Assembly: GCA_030758115.1 (NCBI GenBank)
Contig: JANREX010000065.1
Span: 1-64,000, forward strand
Source: Paracoccaceae bacterium
GTDB lineage: Bacteria; Pseudomonadota; Alphaproteobacteria; Rhodobacterales; Rhodobacteraceae
DNA length: 64,000 nucleotides
Reading direction: 5' to 3'
Below, piece after piece: positions 33,154 through 41,748 of this stretch (position 1 is the stretch's first letter; each line of letters starts with the position of its first letter). The notes below the pieces were generated by a model, which ran no database searches, had not been told where the DNA came from, and was given only the letters and a program-made list of their open reading frames with translations. The position numbers and the translations under genes are program-made.

Positions 33154-34434
33154 TTAGTTCCACAGCCCCATTGCGCGGGGCAAAAACAAGGTGATCTCAG
33201 GCACGAAGATCAGCACCCCCAGCACCAGGATTTCCACGAAAACAAACGGGATCACCGCACGGGCAAGCGCCCAGTAGTTCAGCCCCGTAACCGTCGAAAC
33301 GATCAACAGGCATCCCCCCATCGGCGGCGACACCAGACCAATGGTCAGGTTGAAACAGATCACGATGCCCAGGTGCACCGGGTCCGCGCCCTGCGCCAAA
33401 GCCACTGGCGCCACCAACGGCACCAGCAGGGCCAGCGCCATTGGGATGTCCAGGAACATGCCCGCCAGAATGAACAGCAGGTTCATCGCCAGCATGAAGC
33501 CGATAGGGCCAAGGCCCAGATCGGTGATCAGCGCCGAGATCGCCTGCGGAATGCGTTCGAGAGAGGCCAGATGGCCAAAGGCGGCAATCGCGCTGAGCAC
33601 GACAAAGATTGACCCGGTCAGCATCGCCGTGCGGCGGATGCTTTCGAACAGCGCCTCGCGGCTCAGGCCCTCGTAGAAAAAGGCGGCCAGTCCCGCCACG
33701 ACCACGGCCACAGCGGCGGCTTCGGTTGGCGTCATCCAACCAAAGACAATCCCGCCGACAATGATCACGGGCAGACACAGCGCAGGCAGCGCGCGGCCCA
33801 ACGCCGGAAAGACGGCCGGTGCGTCGCCTTTTTCAATGCGCGGGTGATCGTCGCGAATGGCGAAGTAGGCGTTCAGTGCGAACAGCGCCGATGCCAGCAA
33901 CAGCCCCGGCAGAATGCCTGCCACAAACAGCGCCGCAACGGATGTCTGCATGATCGCGCCGTAAAAGATCAGGATGATCGACGGCGGCACGATTGGCCCG
34001 ATGATGGATGAGGCGGCTGTGATGGCACCTGCATAAAGCTTGGTGTAGCCGCGTTGCTCCATCGCCGGGACCAGCGTGTTTGACAAAGACGCCGCATCAG
34101 CGACAGCCGATCCGGAAATCCCTGCGAAGAAGACAGAGGTCATGATGTTTACATGACCCAGCCCGCCACGAAGGCGGCCCACCAGCGCCATGGAGAAGTC
34201 GATCAACGCCTTGGTGACGCCGCCTCGGTTCATCAACTCGCCCGCGAGGATGAACAGGGGCATCGACAACAGCGCAAAGACGCTGATCTGCGAGAAAACC
34301 TTTTGCGGCAGGATCGCAAGATAGCGTTCGTTGTCGGTCAGGATGAACGACACAACTGCCGCGCCGCCAACCACATATGCCAACCCCAAACCTGACGCCA
34401 AAAGCACGATCAGAATGATTGGAACGAACCACAT
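33154..34434 (-). CDS. TRAP transporter large permease subunit (DctM type)
   Basis: The protein has 426 residues from the ATG at 34434, whose first base is the last base of the oxidase stop codon (TGATG). DctM features include FFAGISGSAVADAASLSNTL, GPIVPPSIILIFYG and VSPPMGGCLLI near the end, with about 12 membrane segments. Gene order in this cluster is M-P-Q rather than the common P-Q-M seen in the other TRAP set at 15270-18310. Confidence 0.92.
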   Translation of the reverse strand: MWFVPIILIVLLASGLGLAYVVGGAAVVSFILTDNERYLAILPQKVFSQISVFALLSMPLFILAGELMNRGGVTKALIDFSMALVGRLRGGLGHVNIMTSVFFAGISGSAVADAASLSNTLVPAMEQRGYTKLYAGAITAASSIIGPIVPPSIILIFYGAIMQTSVAALFVAGILPGLLLASALFALNAYFAIRDDHPRIEKGDAPAVFPALGRALPALCLPVIIVGGIVFGWMTPTEAAAVAVVVAGLAAFFYEGLSREALFESIRRTAMLTGSIFVVLSAIAAFGHLASLERIPQAISALITDLGLGPIGFMLAMNLLFILAGMFLDIPMALALLVPLVAPVALAQGADPVHLGIVICFNLTIGLVSPPMGGCLLIVSTVTGLNYWALARAVIPFVFVEILVLGVLIFVPEITLFLPRAMGLWN

Positions 34435-35579
34435 CACAGGCCAAGCCCTTCTCGATCCGGCTGGATCGTTTGCGGATCAAGCCGCTCTGCGAGTATATGT
34501 TCGGGAACCGGTTTTCCCATCAGTTCCGCCGCTGCATATTGTGCAAGGCCGGGTGCGGACTGGATGCCGTAGCCACCTTGCCCGGCCAGCCAATAAAACC
34601 CGTCAACCTTGCGGGAAAATCCCGCCACCGGCGATTTGTCGGCAACGAAACTGCGCAAGCCTGCCCAGGGGCTTTCAACCCGCTTGACCGACACGTCAAA
34701 GGCACGCTCGATCCGGTCCACGCAGATTGCGATGTCCATCTCATCGGGCTGCACGTCGCAGGGCGGCTCGGGGTCTTCGTTTGCAGGGGAGATCAGCAGC
34801 TTGCCCGCGTCGGGTTTCAGGTAGAACTCTTCGGCAACATCAATCGTCAGTGGCAGTGACCTGGTGTCATAGCCTGCGGGCGCAGCAACCATCAGCGCCG
34901 TGCGGCGTTTCGGTGTCAGCCCGATCCGTTCGGCCCCGGCCATGTGTCCCAATGCATCGGCCCATGCCCCCGCGGCGTTCACCACTTTTCGCGCGCGGAT
35001 GTCCCCTTGCGGTGTGGCGATCTGCCAGGCCTCTGCGCCATGCGTCAAGCCGGTCACGGGCGCGCGGGTCATGACAGTTCCGCCATGTTCCTTGAACATG
35101 CGCAAATAGCCCTGATGCAGCGCCGCCACGTCGATTTCCGATGTGCCGGTGTCCCAAAGGGCGGCCACTGCATAGCCCTCGCGCAGCAGCGGCAGCCGTT
35201 CATACAGCGCGTCCTGGTCAATCCGGCTTACGGTTGACGCATCGGACAGCTCTTGCTCCATCGCGTCCAACTGGTCCAGTTGGTCCGCGCGCGCCACAAA
35301 GACCGCGTCGATGGGCGACAGAAGCGGACGCTCTGCAAACCCGGCGGGAGGGTTTTCGAAAAACAACAAGGAGGCACGTGTGAGCGCGCGGATCGGCTGT
35401 GGTCCGTAGATCGGGGAATAGACAGCGGCGGAACGCCCTGTGGTGTGATACCCGGGCTGGCTTTCCTGCTCGATCAGAACGACCTTTGCGCCCGCCGTGG
35501 CAAGCTCTGCCGCGACAGAGGCCCCTGCGATGCCCGCACCGATCACCGCGACGTCAAAAGGGTGTTCTGCGTTCGGCAA
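34434..35579 (-). CDS. FAD-dependent oxidoreductase, DadA/glycine-oxidase type
   Basis: The protein has 381 residues from a TTG at 35579, preceded by GGGAG seven bases upstream; no ATG or GTG fits better. The N-terminal Rossmann motif is VIGAGIAGASVAAELATAGA, with an FAD ribose Glu in VVLIEQES. VNAAGAWAD lies mid-chain, and the C-terminal GFYWLAGQGGYGIQSAP closes the FAD site. The family oxidises amino acids or N-substituted amino acids to imines. It is the first gene of the leftward operon and faces the XRE-cupin gene. RidA in the same operon fits removal of its imine products. Confidence 0.88.
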   Translation of the reverse strand: MPNAEHPFDVAVIGAGIAGASVAAELATAGAKVVLIEQESQPGYHTTGRSAAVYSPIYGPQPIRALTRASLLFFENPPAGFAERPLLSPIDAVFVARADQLDQLDAMEQELSDASTVSRIDQDALYERLPLLREGYAVAALWDTGTSEIDVAALHQGYLRMFKEHGGTVMTRAPVTGLTHGAEAWQIATPQGDIRARKVVNAAGAWADALGHMAGAERIGLTPKRRTALMVAAPAGYDTRSLPLTIDVAEEFYLKPDAGKLLISPANEDPEPPCDVQPDEMDIAICVDRIERAFDVSVKRVESPWAGLRSFVADKSPVAGFSRKVDGFYWLAGQGGYGIQSAPGLAQYAAAELMGKPVPEHILAERLDPQTIQPDREGLGL

Positions 35580-35634
35580 AAGTATCTCCCAAAGTCAGAA
35601 TCGTTTCCAGTTGCTTGCAAAGGATGGTAGTTAA

Positions 35635-35675
35635 TTTTCGTATCGGAAAAAAGAAAAACTTTTCGTATCGGAAAA
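35635..35675. promoter_or_regulatory. Two tandem copies of a 16-bp operator in the divergent promoter
   Basis: TTTTCGTATCGGAAAA occurs exactly twice, at 35635-35650 and 35660-35675, 25 bases apart. Each copy has inverted ends (TTTTC/GAAAA). They lie between the oxidase operon (start 35579, leftward) and the XRE-cupin gene (start 35689, rightward). They are the best candidate binding sites for that regulator, which would then control both directions. Confidence 0.8.
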
Positions 35676-35688
35676 TTTGGGTGGTTAT

Positions 35689-36318
35689 ATGCAGCAGCCG
35701 ATGAAGCTTCTTGAACCAAGTGCGACGACCCCGGAGGCCAACCTGGGCGCGCGTGTGCGTGACATCCGCAAATCGCGAAAATGGACCCTCAAGGAAGTTG
35801 CCGCGCGTACCGGCCTTGCCATCTCGACGATATCCAAGATGGAGCGTGGCGAGATTTCGCTGACATATGACCGCTTCATGCGCTTGGCCCAGGGGCTTGG
35901 TCTTGACGTGGGCGAGTTGTTTGACGCCGACGCGGAAGGCTTTTCGCATGGCACCGTTTCCGTGACCCGGGCAGGCGATGCGCCCGTGCACCGATCCGCG
36001 ACCTATGACTATGACATGCTGGCCTCGGATGTGACCGGCAAGCACATGGTGCCAATGGTGGGCCATATCAAAGCCCATAGTTTCGGCGCGTTCGAGGATT
36101 TCATCTCGCACCCCGGCGAAGAGTTCATCTACGTGATCGATGGCACGCTGGACGTATACCTGAAAGGGCGCGATCCCATCACGTTGAGCAAGGGCGACAG
36201 CATCTACTTCGACAGCGGGTTGGGGCATGCTTATGTCTCGACCAGCGAGAAAGACGCGACCGTCCTGGGGGTGTGCTGGAAGCCGGGTGAGCAACGCTCG
36301 GGTGGAACATCGGGTTGA
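35689..36318 (+). CDS. XRE-family regulator with C-terminal cupin domain
   Basis: The protein has 209 residues from the ATG at 35689 (GGGTGG upstream); an ATG at 35701 is possible. The HTH reads LKEVAARTGLAISTISKMER. The cupin half carries HPGEEFIYVIDGTLDVYLKG and ends with HAYVSTSEKDATVLGVCW. PuuR/SutR-type proteins of this layout repress catabolic genes until a small ligand occupies the cupin. The two operator copies start just 14 bases before its start codon, indicating autoregulation. Confidence 0.92.
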   Translation: MQQPMKLLEPSATTPEANLGARVRDIRKSRKWTLKEVAARTGLAISTISKMERGEISLTYDRFMRLAQGLGLDVGELFDADAEGFSHGTVSVTRAGDAPVHRSATYDYDMLASDVTGKHMVPMVGHIKAHSFGAFEDFISHPGEEFIYVIDGTLDVYLKGRDPITLSKGDSIYFDSGLGHAYVSTSEKDATVLGVCWKPGEQRSGGTSG

Positions 36319-36337
36319 GATATCGAGAGCAAACAGC

Positions 36338-37375
36338 ATGCAGACACTGACCCCCGACTTCGACGACGCCAAACTCGGGCGCTATCTGGAAGCTCATATT
36401 GACGGATTTCAGGGCCCGCTTACGTCAAAGAAGTTTTCAGGCGGGCAGTCGAACCCGACGTTCCTGTTGAGCGCGGCAAGCGGGAAATATGTGCTGCGTC
36501 GCAAGCCGCCGGGCACATTGCTGGCGTCGGCCCATGCGGTGGATCGTGAATACCGCGTGATGAAAGCCCTGCAAGGCAGTGCAGTTCCCGTCGCCACGCC
36601 GCATGTCTTGTGTGAGGATCCAGATATCATAGGCAGCATGTTCTATGTGATGGGCTTCGCGGAGGGACGCATCTTTTGGGATCCGGCCTTGCCGGACTTG
36701 CCCCAAGATGGCCGCAAGCCCATTCATATGGAGCTGGTCCGCATCATGGCGGCGCTGCATGACATTGATGTCGACGCCGTCGGCCTGTCCGACTTTGGCA
36801 AGCGCGGGGACTACTTCGCCCGCCAATTCGCCCGCTGGGAAAAGCAATACAGGGCCTCCGTGACCGGCGACATCCCGGCAATGGATGAGCTTGCCAGCCT
36901 TCTGGCCGGAAACCTTCCCGCAGATGATGGGCAGGTCAGCCTCGTGCATGGCGATTTTCGCATCGACAATGTGATCTTTCATCCCACCGGACCTGACGCC
37001 CTGGCCCTGATAGATTGGGAGTTGTCGACACTGGGCCATCCGATGGCCGACCTGTCCTATTTCTGCATGGGGCTTCGTTTGCCCGATCTTGGTTCCGTGA
37101 TCGGCATGGCTGGCAAAGACCGCAGGGCACTTGGTGTTCCGCAGGAAACCGAATTGGTGGCGCAGTATTGCGCCTTGAGGGGCATCGCGCCGCCCGGCGA
37201 TTGGAACATCTACCTCGCCTTTGCCTTCTTCCGTCTCGCTGCCATCGCTCAGGGTGTCTACAAACGCGCGATCGATGGCAACGCCTCGAACAAGAAAGCC
37301 CTCGCCATCGGCGCGAAAGTGACACCGCTGGCCGAAATGGGCCTCAAGGCGGCGCATGAAACTTCCCCTTTTTGA
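36338..37375 (+). CDS. APH/choline-kinase-like phosphotransferase (ACAD10/11 kinase-domain type)
   Basis: The protein has 345 residues from the ATG at 36338, 20 bases after the regulator gene. The kinase-like fold shows FSGGQSNPTFLL near the N-terminus, the catalytic loop VHGDFRIDNVIF and the metal-binding segment LALIDWELSTLGHP. Homologues are often annotated as aminoglycoside phosphotransferases, but those encoded near CoA or amino-acid catabolic genes phosphorylate metabolites such as 4-hydroxyacyl-CoA. Antibiotic resistance is not implied. As a probable partner of the neighbouring operon it may phosphorylate a hydroxyl group of the same substrate or of a product; this is inferred. Confidence 0.85.
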   Translation: MQTLTPDFDDAKLGRYLEAHIDGFQGPLTSKKFSGGQSNPTFLLSAASGKYVLRRKPPGTLLASAHAVDREYRVMKALQGSAVPVATPHVLCEDPDIIGSMFYVMGFAEGRIFWDPALPDLPQDGRKPIHMELVRIMAALHDIDVDAVGLSDFGKRGDYFARQFARWEKQYRASVTGDIPAMDELASLLAGNLPADDGQVSLVHGDFRIDNVIFHPTGPDALALIDWELSTLGHPMADLSYFCMGLRLPDLGSVIGMAGKDRRALGVPQETELVAQYCALRGIAPPGDWNIYLAFAFFRLAAIAQGVYKRAIDGNASNKKALAIGAKVTPLAEMGLKAAHETSPF

Positions 37376-39211: not shown

Positions 39212-39257
39212 GTTCACGCTAGCCGGGGGCTGATGTCCGGTGGAAGGTCAAGACAAC

Positions 39258-41297
39258 ATGCCTGATCGTCGCAGTTTCAAGACAATGTGCCCGATGAACT
39301 GTCATCCGACCCTGTGCGGCATGACCGTGACGGTCGAGGCCGATGGCGGTGTGACGATTGCGGGGGATGACACCAACCCCGATAGCGAGGGATTTCTGTG
39401 CATGCGGGGCAAGGCCGCGCATGAGATCCTTGGGAACGACCGCCGCCTGCTCAAGCCCATGGTGCGTGCGTCGCGCGGCACCGCGACCTGGGACGAGGCA
39501 GGTTGGGACGATGTGCTGGACCGGATCGCGGGTCGCATGCAGGCGGTCGGACGCGAGGCTGTCGGGTTCTGGCAGGGCCACGGCAATGCGGTGAACGACT
39601 ATGGCTTCGGGTTGAAACGCGGCCAGATGGAACGCTTTGCCAATCTCTATGGCTGTCAATACTGGAACCCTGCGATGACATGCTGGGGTTTGGGCGGGTT
39701 CGGTCTGGGTCTGACCGGGGCGCTTGAAACCTCGACCAAGGAGGATCTGGGCGCCAACGCGGACTTGGTCATCCTGTGGGGTGTCAACACCGTCAGCCAG
39801 GCCAATACCCTGCGGCATGTGGAGCGCGCGAAACGGCGCGGGGCGCGGATTGTCGCCATCGACATGCGCAAGACCGAGGCTGCGGCGCTGGCCGACGAGG
39901 TGATCCTGGTGCGCCCCGGATCCGATGCTGCGCTGGCGCTGGCGATGATCCATGTGATCATCGCCGATGGCAGCTGGGACGCGGGGTTCGTTGCGAAACA
40001 TACGCTGGGTTTCGATGCCCTGAAGGCGCATGTAGAGCCGATGACGCCCCTTTGGGCGCAGGCGCGCACGGGCGTGCCTGCGGACCTTATCATCGCACTG
40101 GCGCGCAGCTATGCGGCGACCCGGCCCGCGATGATCGTCATTGGCGGATCATCGCTGCACAAGGGTGACAATACCTGGAATGCAGCACGCGCGATTTCCT
40201 GCCTTGTGGGGCTGAGCGGGAATTTCGGCCGCCCCGGTGGCGGGATCGGCCCGCGCCACGGCAGCCGCAGCCATGGCGCCGGATTTGCCGACCTGTCGGC
40301 CGCCCATCGCCGCAAGCCCGGCACCTATGTGCCGAACCAGATGGAGGCGATCATCGCCGCGCTGGAAAGCGGTGCGGTCAAGGTTCTGTTCTCGATCGGG
40401 TCCAATTTCCTGTCTTCGTTTCCCGATACCAATCGCGTGCGCGCGGCCCTCGCCAAGGCCGAGATGGTGATCGCCTATGATATCTTCCCCAATCAGATGA
40501 TCCGGGAGGCTGCGGATATCGTGCTGCCCGGCACGGTCTGGCTGGAGGAAATCGGCGCGAAGGCCACGAATACGCATGTGCATCTGTCGGATCGCGTCCT
40601 GCCGGCGCCGGGCGATGCAAGGCCGGCATATGCGATTTATCAGGGTCTGGCCCAGCGGCTGGGTGTCGCCGATGTCTACCCCTGGACGGACCAGGAGGCG
40701 GCGATGAATGCCGCGCTTGATCACCCTGCAACGGGCCATGCCACCGTTGACATGATGCGCGCGGCCGGTGGCCGGGTGCCGCTGAAGATATCGCATGTCG
40801 CCTACCCGTCGTTTGAATTCGCCACACCGTCGGGCAAGATCGAATTCCTGTCCGAACGGGCCGCCGCGATGGGGCTGCCCGCATTGCCCGTGGCGGCTGA
40901 TCCCGCGCCGGAGGCGGGCGGTCTGATCCTGGCGCATGGACGCACATTCGCGCATTTCCACGCCTTCTACGATCACGGGCGCGCCCTTCCGACGCTGGCC
41001 GCGCGGGAGGATGCGGCGGATCTCTGGATCGCCCCTTGCGATGCACAGGTCAGAGGGGTGTCTGACGGGGACATGATCGATGTGACGAATGCGGGGGGAT
41101 GCTTTCGCGCGCGGGCGAAGGTGACAGCCCGGATGCCTGCCGGGGCGGTCTGGATCAGGGATGGCTGGCCTGGCCTGAATGTGCTGACCGATGGGGCTGC
41201 CGTTCTTCCCGATACGGCGCTGGATGCCTTTGCCTTTTCCGTGGGACAAAGCCATTTCGGCGCGCGGGTCGAGGTGCGGGTGGCGCAGGGGGGCTGA
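39258..41297 (+). CDS. Molybdopterin oxidoreductase (DMSO-reductase family)
   Basis: The protein has 679 residues from the ATG at 39258; GTG at 39240 is the alternative. The N-terminus has the 4Fe-4S domain (CPMNCHPTLCGM, then C in FLCMRGKAA), followed by the Mo-bisMGD domains. Cys142 in MTCWGLGGFG is in the place where this family puts its Cys, Ser or Sec molybdenum ligand. SGNFGRPGGGIG and VLPGTVWLEEIGAKATNTHVHLSDR are family blocks. No Tat signal is seen, so it should work in the cytoplasm, unlike respiratory members. The likely electron partner is not encoded nearby. The substrate is unknown; a formate-dehydrogenase- or arsenate-like role is possible but unsupported. Confidence 0.85.
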   Translation: MPDRRSFKTMCPMNCHPTLCGMTVTVEADGGVTIAGDDTNPDSEGFLCMRGKAAHEILGNDRRLLKPMVRASRGTATWDEAGWDDVLDRIAGRMQAVGREAVGFWQGHGNAVNDYGFGLKRGQMERFANLYGCQYWNPAMTCWGLGGFGLGLTGALETSTKEDLGANADLVILWGVNTVSQANTLRHVERAKRRGARIVAIDMRKTEAAALADEVILVRPGSDAALALAMIHVIIADGSWDAGFVAKHTLGFDALKAHVEPMTPLWAQARTGVPADLIIALARSYAATRPAMIVIGGSSLHKGDNTWNAARAISCLVGLSGNFGRPGGGIGPRHGSRSHGAGFADLSAAHRRKPGTYVPNQMEAIIAALESGAVKVLFSIGSNFLSSFPDTNRVRAALAKAEMVIAYDIFPNQMIREAADIVLPGTVWLEEIGAKATNTHVHLSDRVLPAPGDARPAYAIYQGLAQRLGVADVYPWTDQEAAMNAALDHPATGHATVDMMRAAGGRVPLKISHVAYPSFEFATPSGKIEFLSERAAAMGLPALPVAADPAPEAGGLILAHGRTFAHFHAFYDHGRALPTLAAREDAADLWIAPCDAQVRGVSDGDMIDVTNAGGCFRARAKVTARMPAGAVWIRDGWPGLNVLTDGAAVLPDTALDAFAFSVGQSHFGARVEVRVAQGG

Positions 41298-41382
41298 CCC
41301 GATCCTGAAGCCTGCCAGGGATCGACACCGGCAGTGCGCATCCAGACTGTCCTTGGTGGCGACGACAGCGCAGCGCTACCTG

Positions 41383-41748
41383 CTAGAGCCGCTCATCCTT
41401 GAGCAGCGCGCAGAGCGCATCCAGTTGGGTGCTCCCCGCGCCGCTGGCTTCCTGCTCGAACGCGCGGTAGAGCGTCAGCACGCGCTGGCCCGCCTCGGTC
41501 AGGCGCGCGCCGCCGCCGCCCGGACCGCCGCGTGTGCTGTCCACCAGGGGGTCGCGGAACATATCGTTCAGGGTGCCGATCAATTGCCAGGCGCGCTTGT
41601 AACTCATGCCCATTTCCCGGCCTGCCGCCGCGATCGAACCCGTGCGGGCAATCCGTTCCAGCAGCTCGGCCTTTCCGGGGCCGATCATCTCGTCGGCGCC
41701 AAAGACGATGCGGATGCGCAAGCGGGGGCGTGGTGGGTCCTGATCCAT
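41383..41748 (-). CDS. ModE-like winged-helix DNA-binding protein
   Basis: The 121-residue protein is a lone HTH domain of the ModE N-terminal type: LLERIARTGSIAAAGREMGM, then SYKRAWQLIGTLNDMF and a Gly-rich loop (GGPGGGGARLTEAGQRVL). It has no molybdate-binding (TOBE/MOP) domain. Short ModE-like regulators of this kind often accompany molybdoenzymes. It converges on the molybdopterin oxidoreductase gene, so a regulatory link to that gene is plausible, though the target sites are not visible. Confidence 0.85.
   Translation of the reverse strand: MDQDPPRPRLRIRIVFGADEMIGPGKAELLERIARTGSIAAAGREMGMSYKRAWQLIGTLNDMFRDPLVDSTRGGPGGGGARLTEAGQRVLTLYRAFEQEASGAGSTQLDALCALLKDERL

Follow-up and report, generated by a model that had tools for sequence, protein, structure and literature searches.

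Two identical sites in a divergent intergenic region

The 64,000-nucleotide stretch of DNA analysed here (the window) contains a gene for a regulator of the XRE-cupin type that is divergent from a gene for an FAD-dependent oxidase, and the same 16-mer occurs twice in the short gap between them. The locus thus raises the question of whether the two copies are operators, and if so, which protein binds them and with what effect on the genes on either side. The features considered are as follows.

35635 to 35650, no strand: probable operator site 1, TTTTCGTATCGGAAAA, exact; counterpart in 12 of 12 close orthologous loci
35660 to 35675, no strand: probable operator site 2, the identical 16-mer TTTTCGTATCGGAAAA, exact; counterpart in 12 of 12 orthologous loci
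35689 to 36318, + strand: XRE-cupin regulator (P0001, 209 aa), the proposed binder; Pfam HTH_3 48.3 bits and Cupin_2 56.5 bits, above cut-off
34434 to 35579, - strand: DauA-like FAD oxidase (P0002), a DAO-family protein encoded by the proposed first gene of the operon; Pfam DAO 203 bits
33154 to 34437, - strand: large permease of a TRAP transporter, DctM; Pfam DctM 331.5 bits
32132 to 33163, - strand: TRAP solute-binding protein, DctP (coordinates of the listed open reading frame; translation may in fact start further downstream); Pfam DctP 135.3 bits
31605 to 32120, - strand: TRAP small permease, DctQ; Pfam DctQ 66.7 bits
30160 to 31608, - strand: M81-family metallopeptidase, copy a; Pfam DUF1485 239.5 bits and MlrC_C 168.6 bits
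28696 to 30144, - strand: M81-family metallopeptidase, copy b; Pfam DUF1485 265.6 bits and MlrC_C 164.8 bits

Both sites lie in a gap of 109 bp (36% G+C) between the oxidase operon on the - strand and the XRE-cupin gene on the + strand, with a start-to-start period of 25 bp and 9 bp between the copies. Site 2 ends 13 bases upstream of the ATG of the XRE-cupin gene at 35689, and 55 bases separate site 1 from the probable TTG start of the oxidase gene at 35579 (a distance of 56). Inverted arms of 5 bp (TTTTC/GAAAA) and a central AT are present in each copy; 6 of the 8 symmetric positions match. In the whole 64-kb window, TTTTCGTATCGGAAAA is the sole exact non-overlapping 16-mer repeat within 60 bp. 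A comparable exact repeat was found in none of 100 order-2 Markov sequences of window length and in none of 100,000 shuffles of the 109-bp intergenic region. When up to 3 mismatches were allowed, just the two sites were found in the window; in the corresponding control, 2 of 100 dinucleotide shuffles gave at least 2 matches (mean, 0.17). Since shuffled sequences sometimes match at this level, the remarkable features are the exact identity of the copies and their pairing. Thus, the preliminary description of this gap, which had reported two exact 16-bp copies with inverted ends at 35635 to 35675, 13 bases from the XRE-cupin start codon and 56 from the oxidase start, and had judged the repeat not to be expected by chance, was correct in each of these points.

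Identity of the flanking genes

The oxidase gene, dctM, dctP, dctQ and the two M81 genes lie on one strand with operon-like close spacing. The regulator has the architecture of an XRE-cupin protein, with an N-terminal Cro/CI-type helix-turn-helix and a C-terminal cupin domain, and would share with that class a palindromic site that adjoins both the regulator gene and a neighbouring metabolic target, as predicted from sequence and conservation. An AlphaFold model of the protein built from 11 sequences had a mean pLDDT of 51.7 and was too poor for use.

The oxidase matched D-arginine dehydrogenase (PDB 3nyc) with an E value of 3.1e-94 (phmmer, 319 bits, residues 6 to 376 of 381). By sequence it thus resembles DauA of Pseudomonas aeruginosa (3NYC) throughout, and counterparts of R222, R305, Y53, Y249 and E246 are kept. 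In contrast to DauA, E87 is replaced by Ala (aligned position 92) and H48 by Val. According to the accessible part of PMC11193025, R222 and R305 of DauA bind the carboxylate, and E87, with E246, contacts the guanidinium group of D-arginine. Since E87 is an Ala and H48 a Val in the oxidase studied here, D-arginine need not be its substrate.

MlrC is described in the accessible part of PMC12474180 as cleaving the Adda-Glu bond of microcystin fragments. Both M81 enzymes are relatives of MlrC; an assignment as microcystinase (NF041767) was rejected, since they reached 302.5 and 320.8 bits against a cut-off of 999 bits, and they are classified as M81-family proteins only. Also rejected as part of the module was a kinase-like phosphotransferase gene of the APH family (open reading frame taken as 36227 to 37375) close behind the regulator gene, which was undetected at 12 of 12 orthologous loci; the sequence of two of these, L012 and L017, stops no more than about 0.6 kb from the regulator.

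Conservation of the paired sites

A contig scan with the regulator protein gave 41 loci. The closest 12 (L009 to L020, 58 to 93% identical) came from Shimia, Seohaeicola, Ruegeria, Thalassobius, Carideicomes, other genomes or metagenome-assembled genomes labelled Rhodobacteraceae or Paracoccaceae, and one Notoacmeibacter metagenome-assembled genome. A pair of sites was present directly upstream of the regulator gene in all 12, 23 to 25 bp apart and of the form TTTTC(C/G)NATN(G/C)GAAAA, with a degraded second site in L017 and one arm mismatch in L019. The divergent oxidase was likewise found at 12 of 12 loci (in L019 as just a 95-residue match), dctM at 10 and M81 at 9; L015 and L018 are cut by contig ends. 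In L017, no TRAP or M81 match was found in 6 kb on that side, and operators, regulator and oxidase are present; in L095 (G222), M81 is present and no TRAP match was found. The TRAP and M81 genes are therefore not constant at the locus, a point against the proposed circuit, and to judge from L017, the module may be built around the oxidase and the regulator. Seven more distant XRE-cupins (43 to 50% identical) that are divergent from an oxidase have kept the pair at 21 to 23 bp. No pair was seen upstream of L021 to L024, the 4 of the 29 remaining distant loci that were inspected.

Two further observations concern the gene content of these loci. A second M81 copy at the locus edge is also found in L009, L010, L012, L013 and L014. 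The 95-residue oxidase stretch of L019 (5524 to 5808) stands beside a regulator, transporter and sites that are kept, a possible case of decay or divergence of the oxidase gene.

The sites were also searched for independently of the protein. A strict double-site pattern matched in 4 of 394 genomes of the family, and a relaxed pattern, which had been loosened after inspection of the more distant loci, matched in 14 of 394 at 15 places. A class-wide scan of 289 genomes returned 3, of which one is that of the window and two belong to other families. With the reversed control pattern, no match was obtained in any of the three scans (strict family, relaxed family and class-wide). When the places were checked by tblastn with the proteins of the window, 13 of the 15 in the family lay between an XRE-cupin gene and a divergent oxidase gene (the XRE-cupin gene of G325 is cut by a contig end), both new class-wide places were gaps of the same kind, and all 17 front an oxidase and/or an XRE-cupin gene. 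The orthologue-bearing genome G272 escaped the pattern owing to a site mismatch. The data sets overlap, as the same records occur in both (G005/L010, G031/L013, G038/L018, G220/L015 and G272/L019).

This conservation, in 12 of 12 orthologues and at 17 of 17 pattern places, strongly supports the earlier proposal that the 16-mers are operators of a regulator. As far as sequence comparison can tell, the paired operators are genuine, and the comparative support for them is unusually clear.

Spacing and candidate promoter elements

The consensus was compiled from 46 sites at 23 mutually non-redundant places and has TTTTC and GAAAA as its arms and AT at its centre; position 6 is C (34), G (9) or T (3), position 11 is G (40), C (4) or A (2), and positions 7 and 10 are N. 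T2, T4, C5, A8, T9, G12 and A13 were invariant in all 46 sites; A8 and T9 were imposed by the pattern at three places (L086, L103 and L125), and the other 20 places entered via the regulator protein. The start-to-start distance was 25 bp at 10 places, 24 bp at 2, 23 bp at 4, 22 bp at 4 and 21 bp at 3. The 25-bp spacing given for the window is thus not a fixed property of the pair, which ranges from 21 to 25 bp over the 23 places. Centre-to-centre distances of this range equal 2.0 to 2.4 helical turns and therefore do not fit a rigid cooperation of two dimers.

A conserved element was found next to site 1 on the oxidase strand.

35624 to 35629, - strand: candidate -10 element (TACCAT) of the oxidase operon, predicted from its conserved offset 5 bp beyond site 1

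TAnnnT lies exactly 5 bp past site 1 at 10 of the 13 loci of group A, to which the window belongs, against 5 of 13 at the next best offset; an incomplete form is present in L010 and L018, and none in L015. At the more distant loci, group B, it lies 7 bp past site 1 in 8 of 8 and is preceded by TGC in 7 of them. Site 1 is therefore placed just upstream of the probable -10 element of the oxidase gene. Since a sigma-70 consensus scan of 35400 to 35800 detected no promoter and no terminator, conservation is the ground for this assignment.

In the direction of the regulator, group A has a less regular -10 on the + strand than on the - strand (by eye), and the regulator starts about 0 to 14 nt after site 2 in the ten loci with a clear start. 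In group B, 6 of 7 loci have a -35-like element of the regulator gene, TTGGCn, about 4 to 6 bp after site 2, and 6 of 7 have a putative regulator -10 that ends 6 nt short of the ATG (both by eye); the sequence suggests that the regulator message is leaderless in this group. Autoregulation could be weak or even positive in group B, with a likely regulator promoter that starts right after site 2.

Repression or activation of the oxidase operon

We consider it highly probable that the two sites are tandem operators of the XRE-cupin protein, which would repress the oxidase-TRAP-M81 operon locally, control its own gene and be released by a ligand. To judge from the association across genomes that is described below, the XRE-cupin is very likely the binder of both sites. 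From its family, it is most likely a repressor. Repression and ligand release are proposed because, in the accessible part of PMC7901475, the XRE-cupins of P. aeruginosa with determined regulons are inhibitors and PuuR is said to leave its site on sensing putrescine; there, 6 of the 7 studied regulate at least one adjacent gene.

According to this proposal, one XRE-cupin dimer would bind each 16-bp palindrome. The dimer at site 1, just upstream of the -10 element, would exclude RNA polymerase from the promoter of the oxidase-TRAP-M81 operon, and the dimer at site 2, just before the regulator start codon, would lead to autoregulation and probably limit the synthesis of the regulator itself. A metabolite of the imported substrate would occupy the cupin domain, upon which the protein would be released and the operon expressed. 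That this ligand is related to a D-amino acid is speculative.

Conversely, the XRE-cupin could be an activator, or could repress the oxidase operon while activating its own gene. The lambda CI protein represses one promoter while activating its own gene from O_R2. In group B, the short distance between site 2 and the -35-like element would allow a dimer at site 2 to touch RNA polymerase; in the window, however, the ATG follows 13 nt after site 2, which leaves no room for such a promoter. Furthermore, the position of site 1 directly upstream of the -10-like element of the oxidase gene fits repression, as do the P. aeruginosa XRE-cupins with determined regulons, described as inhibitors in the accessible part of PMC7901475. 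Activation is thus an improbable reading.

The sites follow the regulator and not the oxidase

Relatives of the oxidase at E values up to 1e-95 were found in 43 of 394 family genomes, and 30 loci were read. An XRE-cupin gene lies within the 1.5-kb flank of the oxidase gene at 12 of these and was not detected at the other 18. The pair was present at 8 of 8 oxidase loci whose XRE-cupin is at least 43% identical (with one arm mismatch in L154 and L159), whereas the 4 loci with an XRE-cupin of 35 to 42% identity have single or diverged sites only. At oxidase loci with no detected XRE-cupin, the pair was absent in 17 of 18, of which L134 and L155 show about 130 and about 90 bp upstream before the contig ends. 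Thus, the pair is present with the closer XRE-cupins and mostly absent where none was detected, and therefore it follows this regulator, not the oxidase.

Genome G128 provides a natural control, since regulator and operon are separated there and paired operators are found at both. Its oxidase-TRAP-M81 operon on contig C9 has the pair with no adjacent XRE-cupin gene, and a separate pair precedes an XRE-cupin gene on contig C10 whose product is 46% identical to that of the window. This unlinked case, and the absence of the pair at the 17 oxidase loci, support by sequence association the neighbouring XRE-cupin, already favoured in the preliminary description, as the probable binder.

Alternatively, the sites might belong to another regulator that is encoded elsewhere, with the XRE-cupin gene as a mere target. 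The one locus that favours this is L153 (G255), where a weak pair, 21 bp apart, precedes the oxidase gene and no XRE-cupin was detected nearby. Against it, the pair tracks this type of XRE-cupin across genomes, the unlinked G128 case included, and is absent at the 17 of 18 loci mentioned; moreover, no such sites were seen in the inspected DNA upstream of nine XRE-cupin relatives of about 40% identity (including L084 in the window's own genome), a class that is common in the family. We therefore regard control by another protein as quite unlikely. It is less likely still that the repeats function at the RNA level, by forming a hairpin in the 5' leader of the regulator message that hides the ribosome-binding site: the two copies pair in the fold predicted for 66 nt (-11.7 kcal/mol, no shuffle control) and the AGGAAAA of site 2 immediately precedes the ATG in L012 and L013, but a single site folds weakly (-1.9 kcal/mol), the pair at the G128 operon lacks a neighbouring XRE-cupin gene, and in the oxidase direction the -10-like element comes after the sites, which would hence fall outside the oxidase mRNA.

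Some neighbouring variants were seen in the course of this comparison. In L143, L147, L150 and L152, XRE-cupins of 35 to 42% identity stand beside a DauA-like oxidase, and the site is single or diverged, for example TTTTCGTATACGATAA; in G128 and G092 this type occurs alongside the paired one. Covariation with the recognition helix was set aside as an approach, since the helix core is near-identical in operator-bearing and L143-type proteins. In L065/L093 (G304), an XRE-cupin of 46% identity, with no oxidase detected, has three variant TTTTCGTATACGCAAT-type sites upstream (by eye), and its neighbours are ABC-transporter genes and a gene of the enolase superfamily (MR_MLE); L065 was read together with the nine relatives of about 40% identity but is a protein distinct from them.

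Search for further targets

The genome of the window comprises 3.39 Mb in 112 contigs and is 97.8% complete. When it was scanned for the 16-mer with mismatches, as envisaged in the preliminary description, the two exact copies were found and otherwise six matches with 3 mismatches, compared with 10 matches for the reversed control pattern. A search of the 3.39 Mb with the degenerate palindrome TTTTCNNATNNGAAAA returned just the known two sites and no third. The regulator therefore looks strictly local here, and the expectation that the 16-mer would lead to other targets failed in this genome by both scans. In the relative G128, one candidate second target can be named: on contig C10 (L087, 3538 to 7228), the XRE-cupin gene is divergent from TctC and TctA genes, with a small open reading frame between these, and this tct-type transporter is a candidate for control by the regulator.

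Relation to known systems and possible function

The locus is like PA0535-pauB1, PsdR-mdpA/dppA3 and PauR of P. aeruginosa in domain architecture, metabolic neighbour targets and palindromic sites, as far as these are described in the accessible part of PMC7901475, where the consensus sites of three XRE-cupins are palindromic. The comparison concerns arrangement and site symmetry. The P. aeruginosa targets include the FAD oxidoreductase PauB1 and the metallodipeptidase MdpA with the transporter component DppA3 (same source and part), whereas the proposed binding and repression here would concern a DauA-like oxidase, a TRAP transporter and two M81 enzymes. The regulator would thus belong, by its sequence, to a known class of local metabolic repressors, and the finding would be of a familiar kind. 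The approach, too, has a precedent in a collection of palindromic motifs that were found upstream of XRE-family genes by use of the upstream DNA of homologues; its accessible part gives 5622 motifs in 223 clusters, with 9 of 10 tested motifs bound (PMC12565409). The motif of the window may or may not be in this collection.

PuuR of Escherichia coli (NF007408) is the best NCBIfam match of the regulator over the helix-turn-helix and cupin regions, yet the score of 34.2 bits is far below the cut-off of 211 bits; an assignment as PuuR was rejected, and the likeness named here is one of protein sequence. The best PDB sequence match is the XRE-cupin 1Y9Q of Vibrio cholerae (residues 19 to 190, E value 4.2e-6), which is described with D-methionine in its cupin pocket in the accessible part of PMC7901475. 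Since the similarity to 1Y9Q is weak, the identity of the ligand is not transferable.

A limited literature search found no description of a locus with a DauA-like oxidase, two M81 enzymes and a TRAP transporter; for tandem operators and XRE-cupins it found a cyanobacterial regulator pair only, and for XRE regulons in Rhodobacterales a different regulator only. With a probable operator assigned to an unstudied regulator, the function of the operon becomes directly testable. With its DauA-like oxidase, TRAP transporter and pair of M81 enzymes, the operon points towards the use of D-amino acids or unusual peptides; that it encodes a pathway for D-amino acids or for D-amino-acid-containing peptides is no more than a fair guess. 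Tentatively, and with more doubt than confidence, we extend this to a dedicated regulon, in which a D-amino acid, or a peptide or amide containing one, would be taken up by the TRAP transporter, hydrolysed by the M81 enzymes and oxidized by the DauA-like oxidase, with the XRE-cupin sensing the D-amino acid; such a regulon would be chiefly one of Rhodobacteraceae-type genomes, with sporadic occurrences in the rest of the class. If so, the loosely spaced tandem operators would let the specificity of the regulator drift while the circuit is kept.

Elsewhere in the window, a molybdopterin oxidoreductase gene is followed by a convergent gene for a small LysR-type helix-turn-helix protein (39240 to 41748), which, we assume, may be ModE-like.
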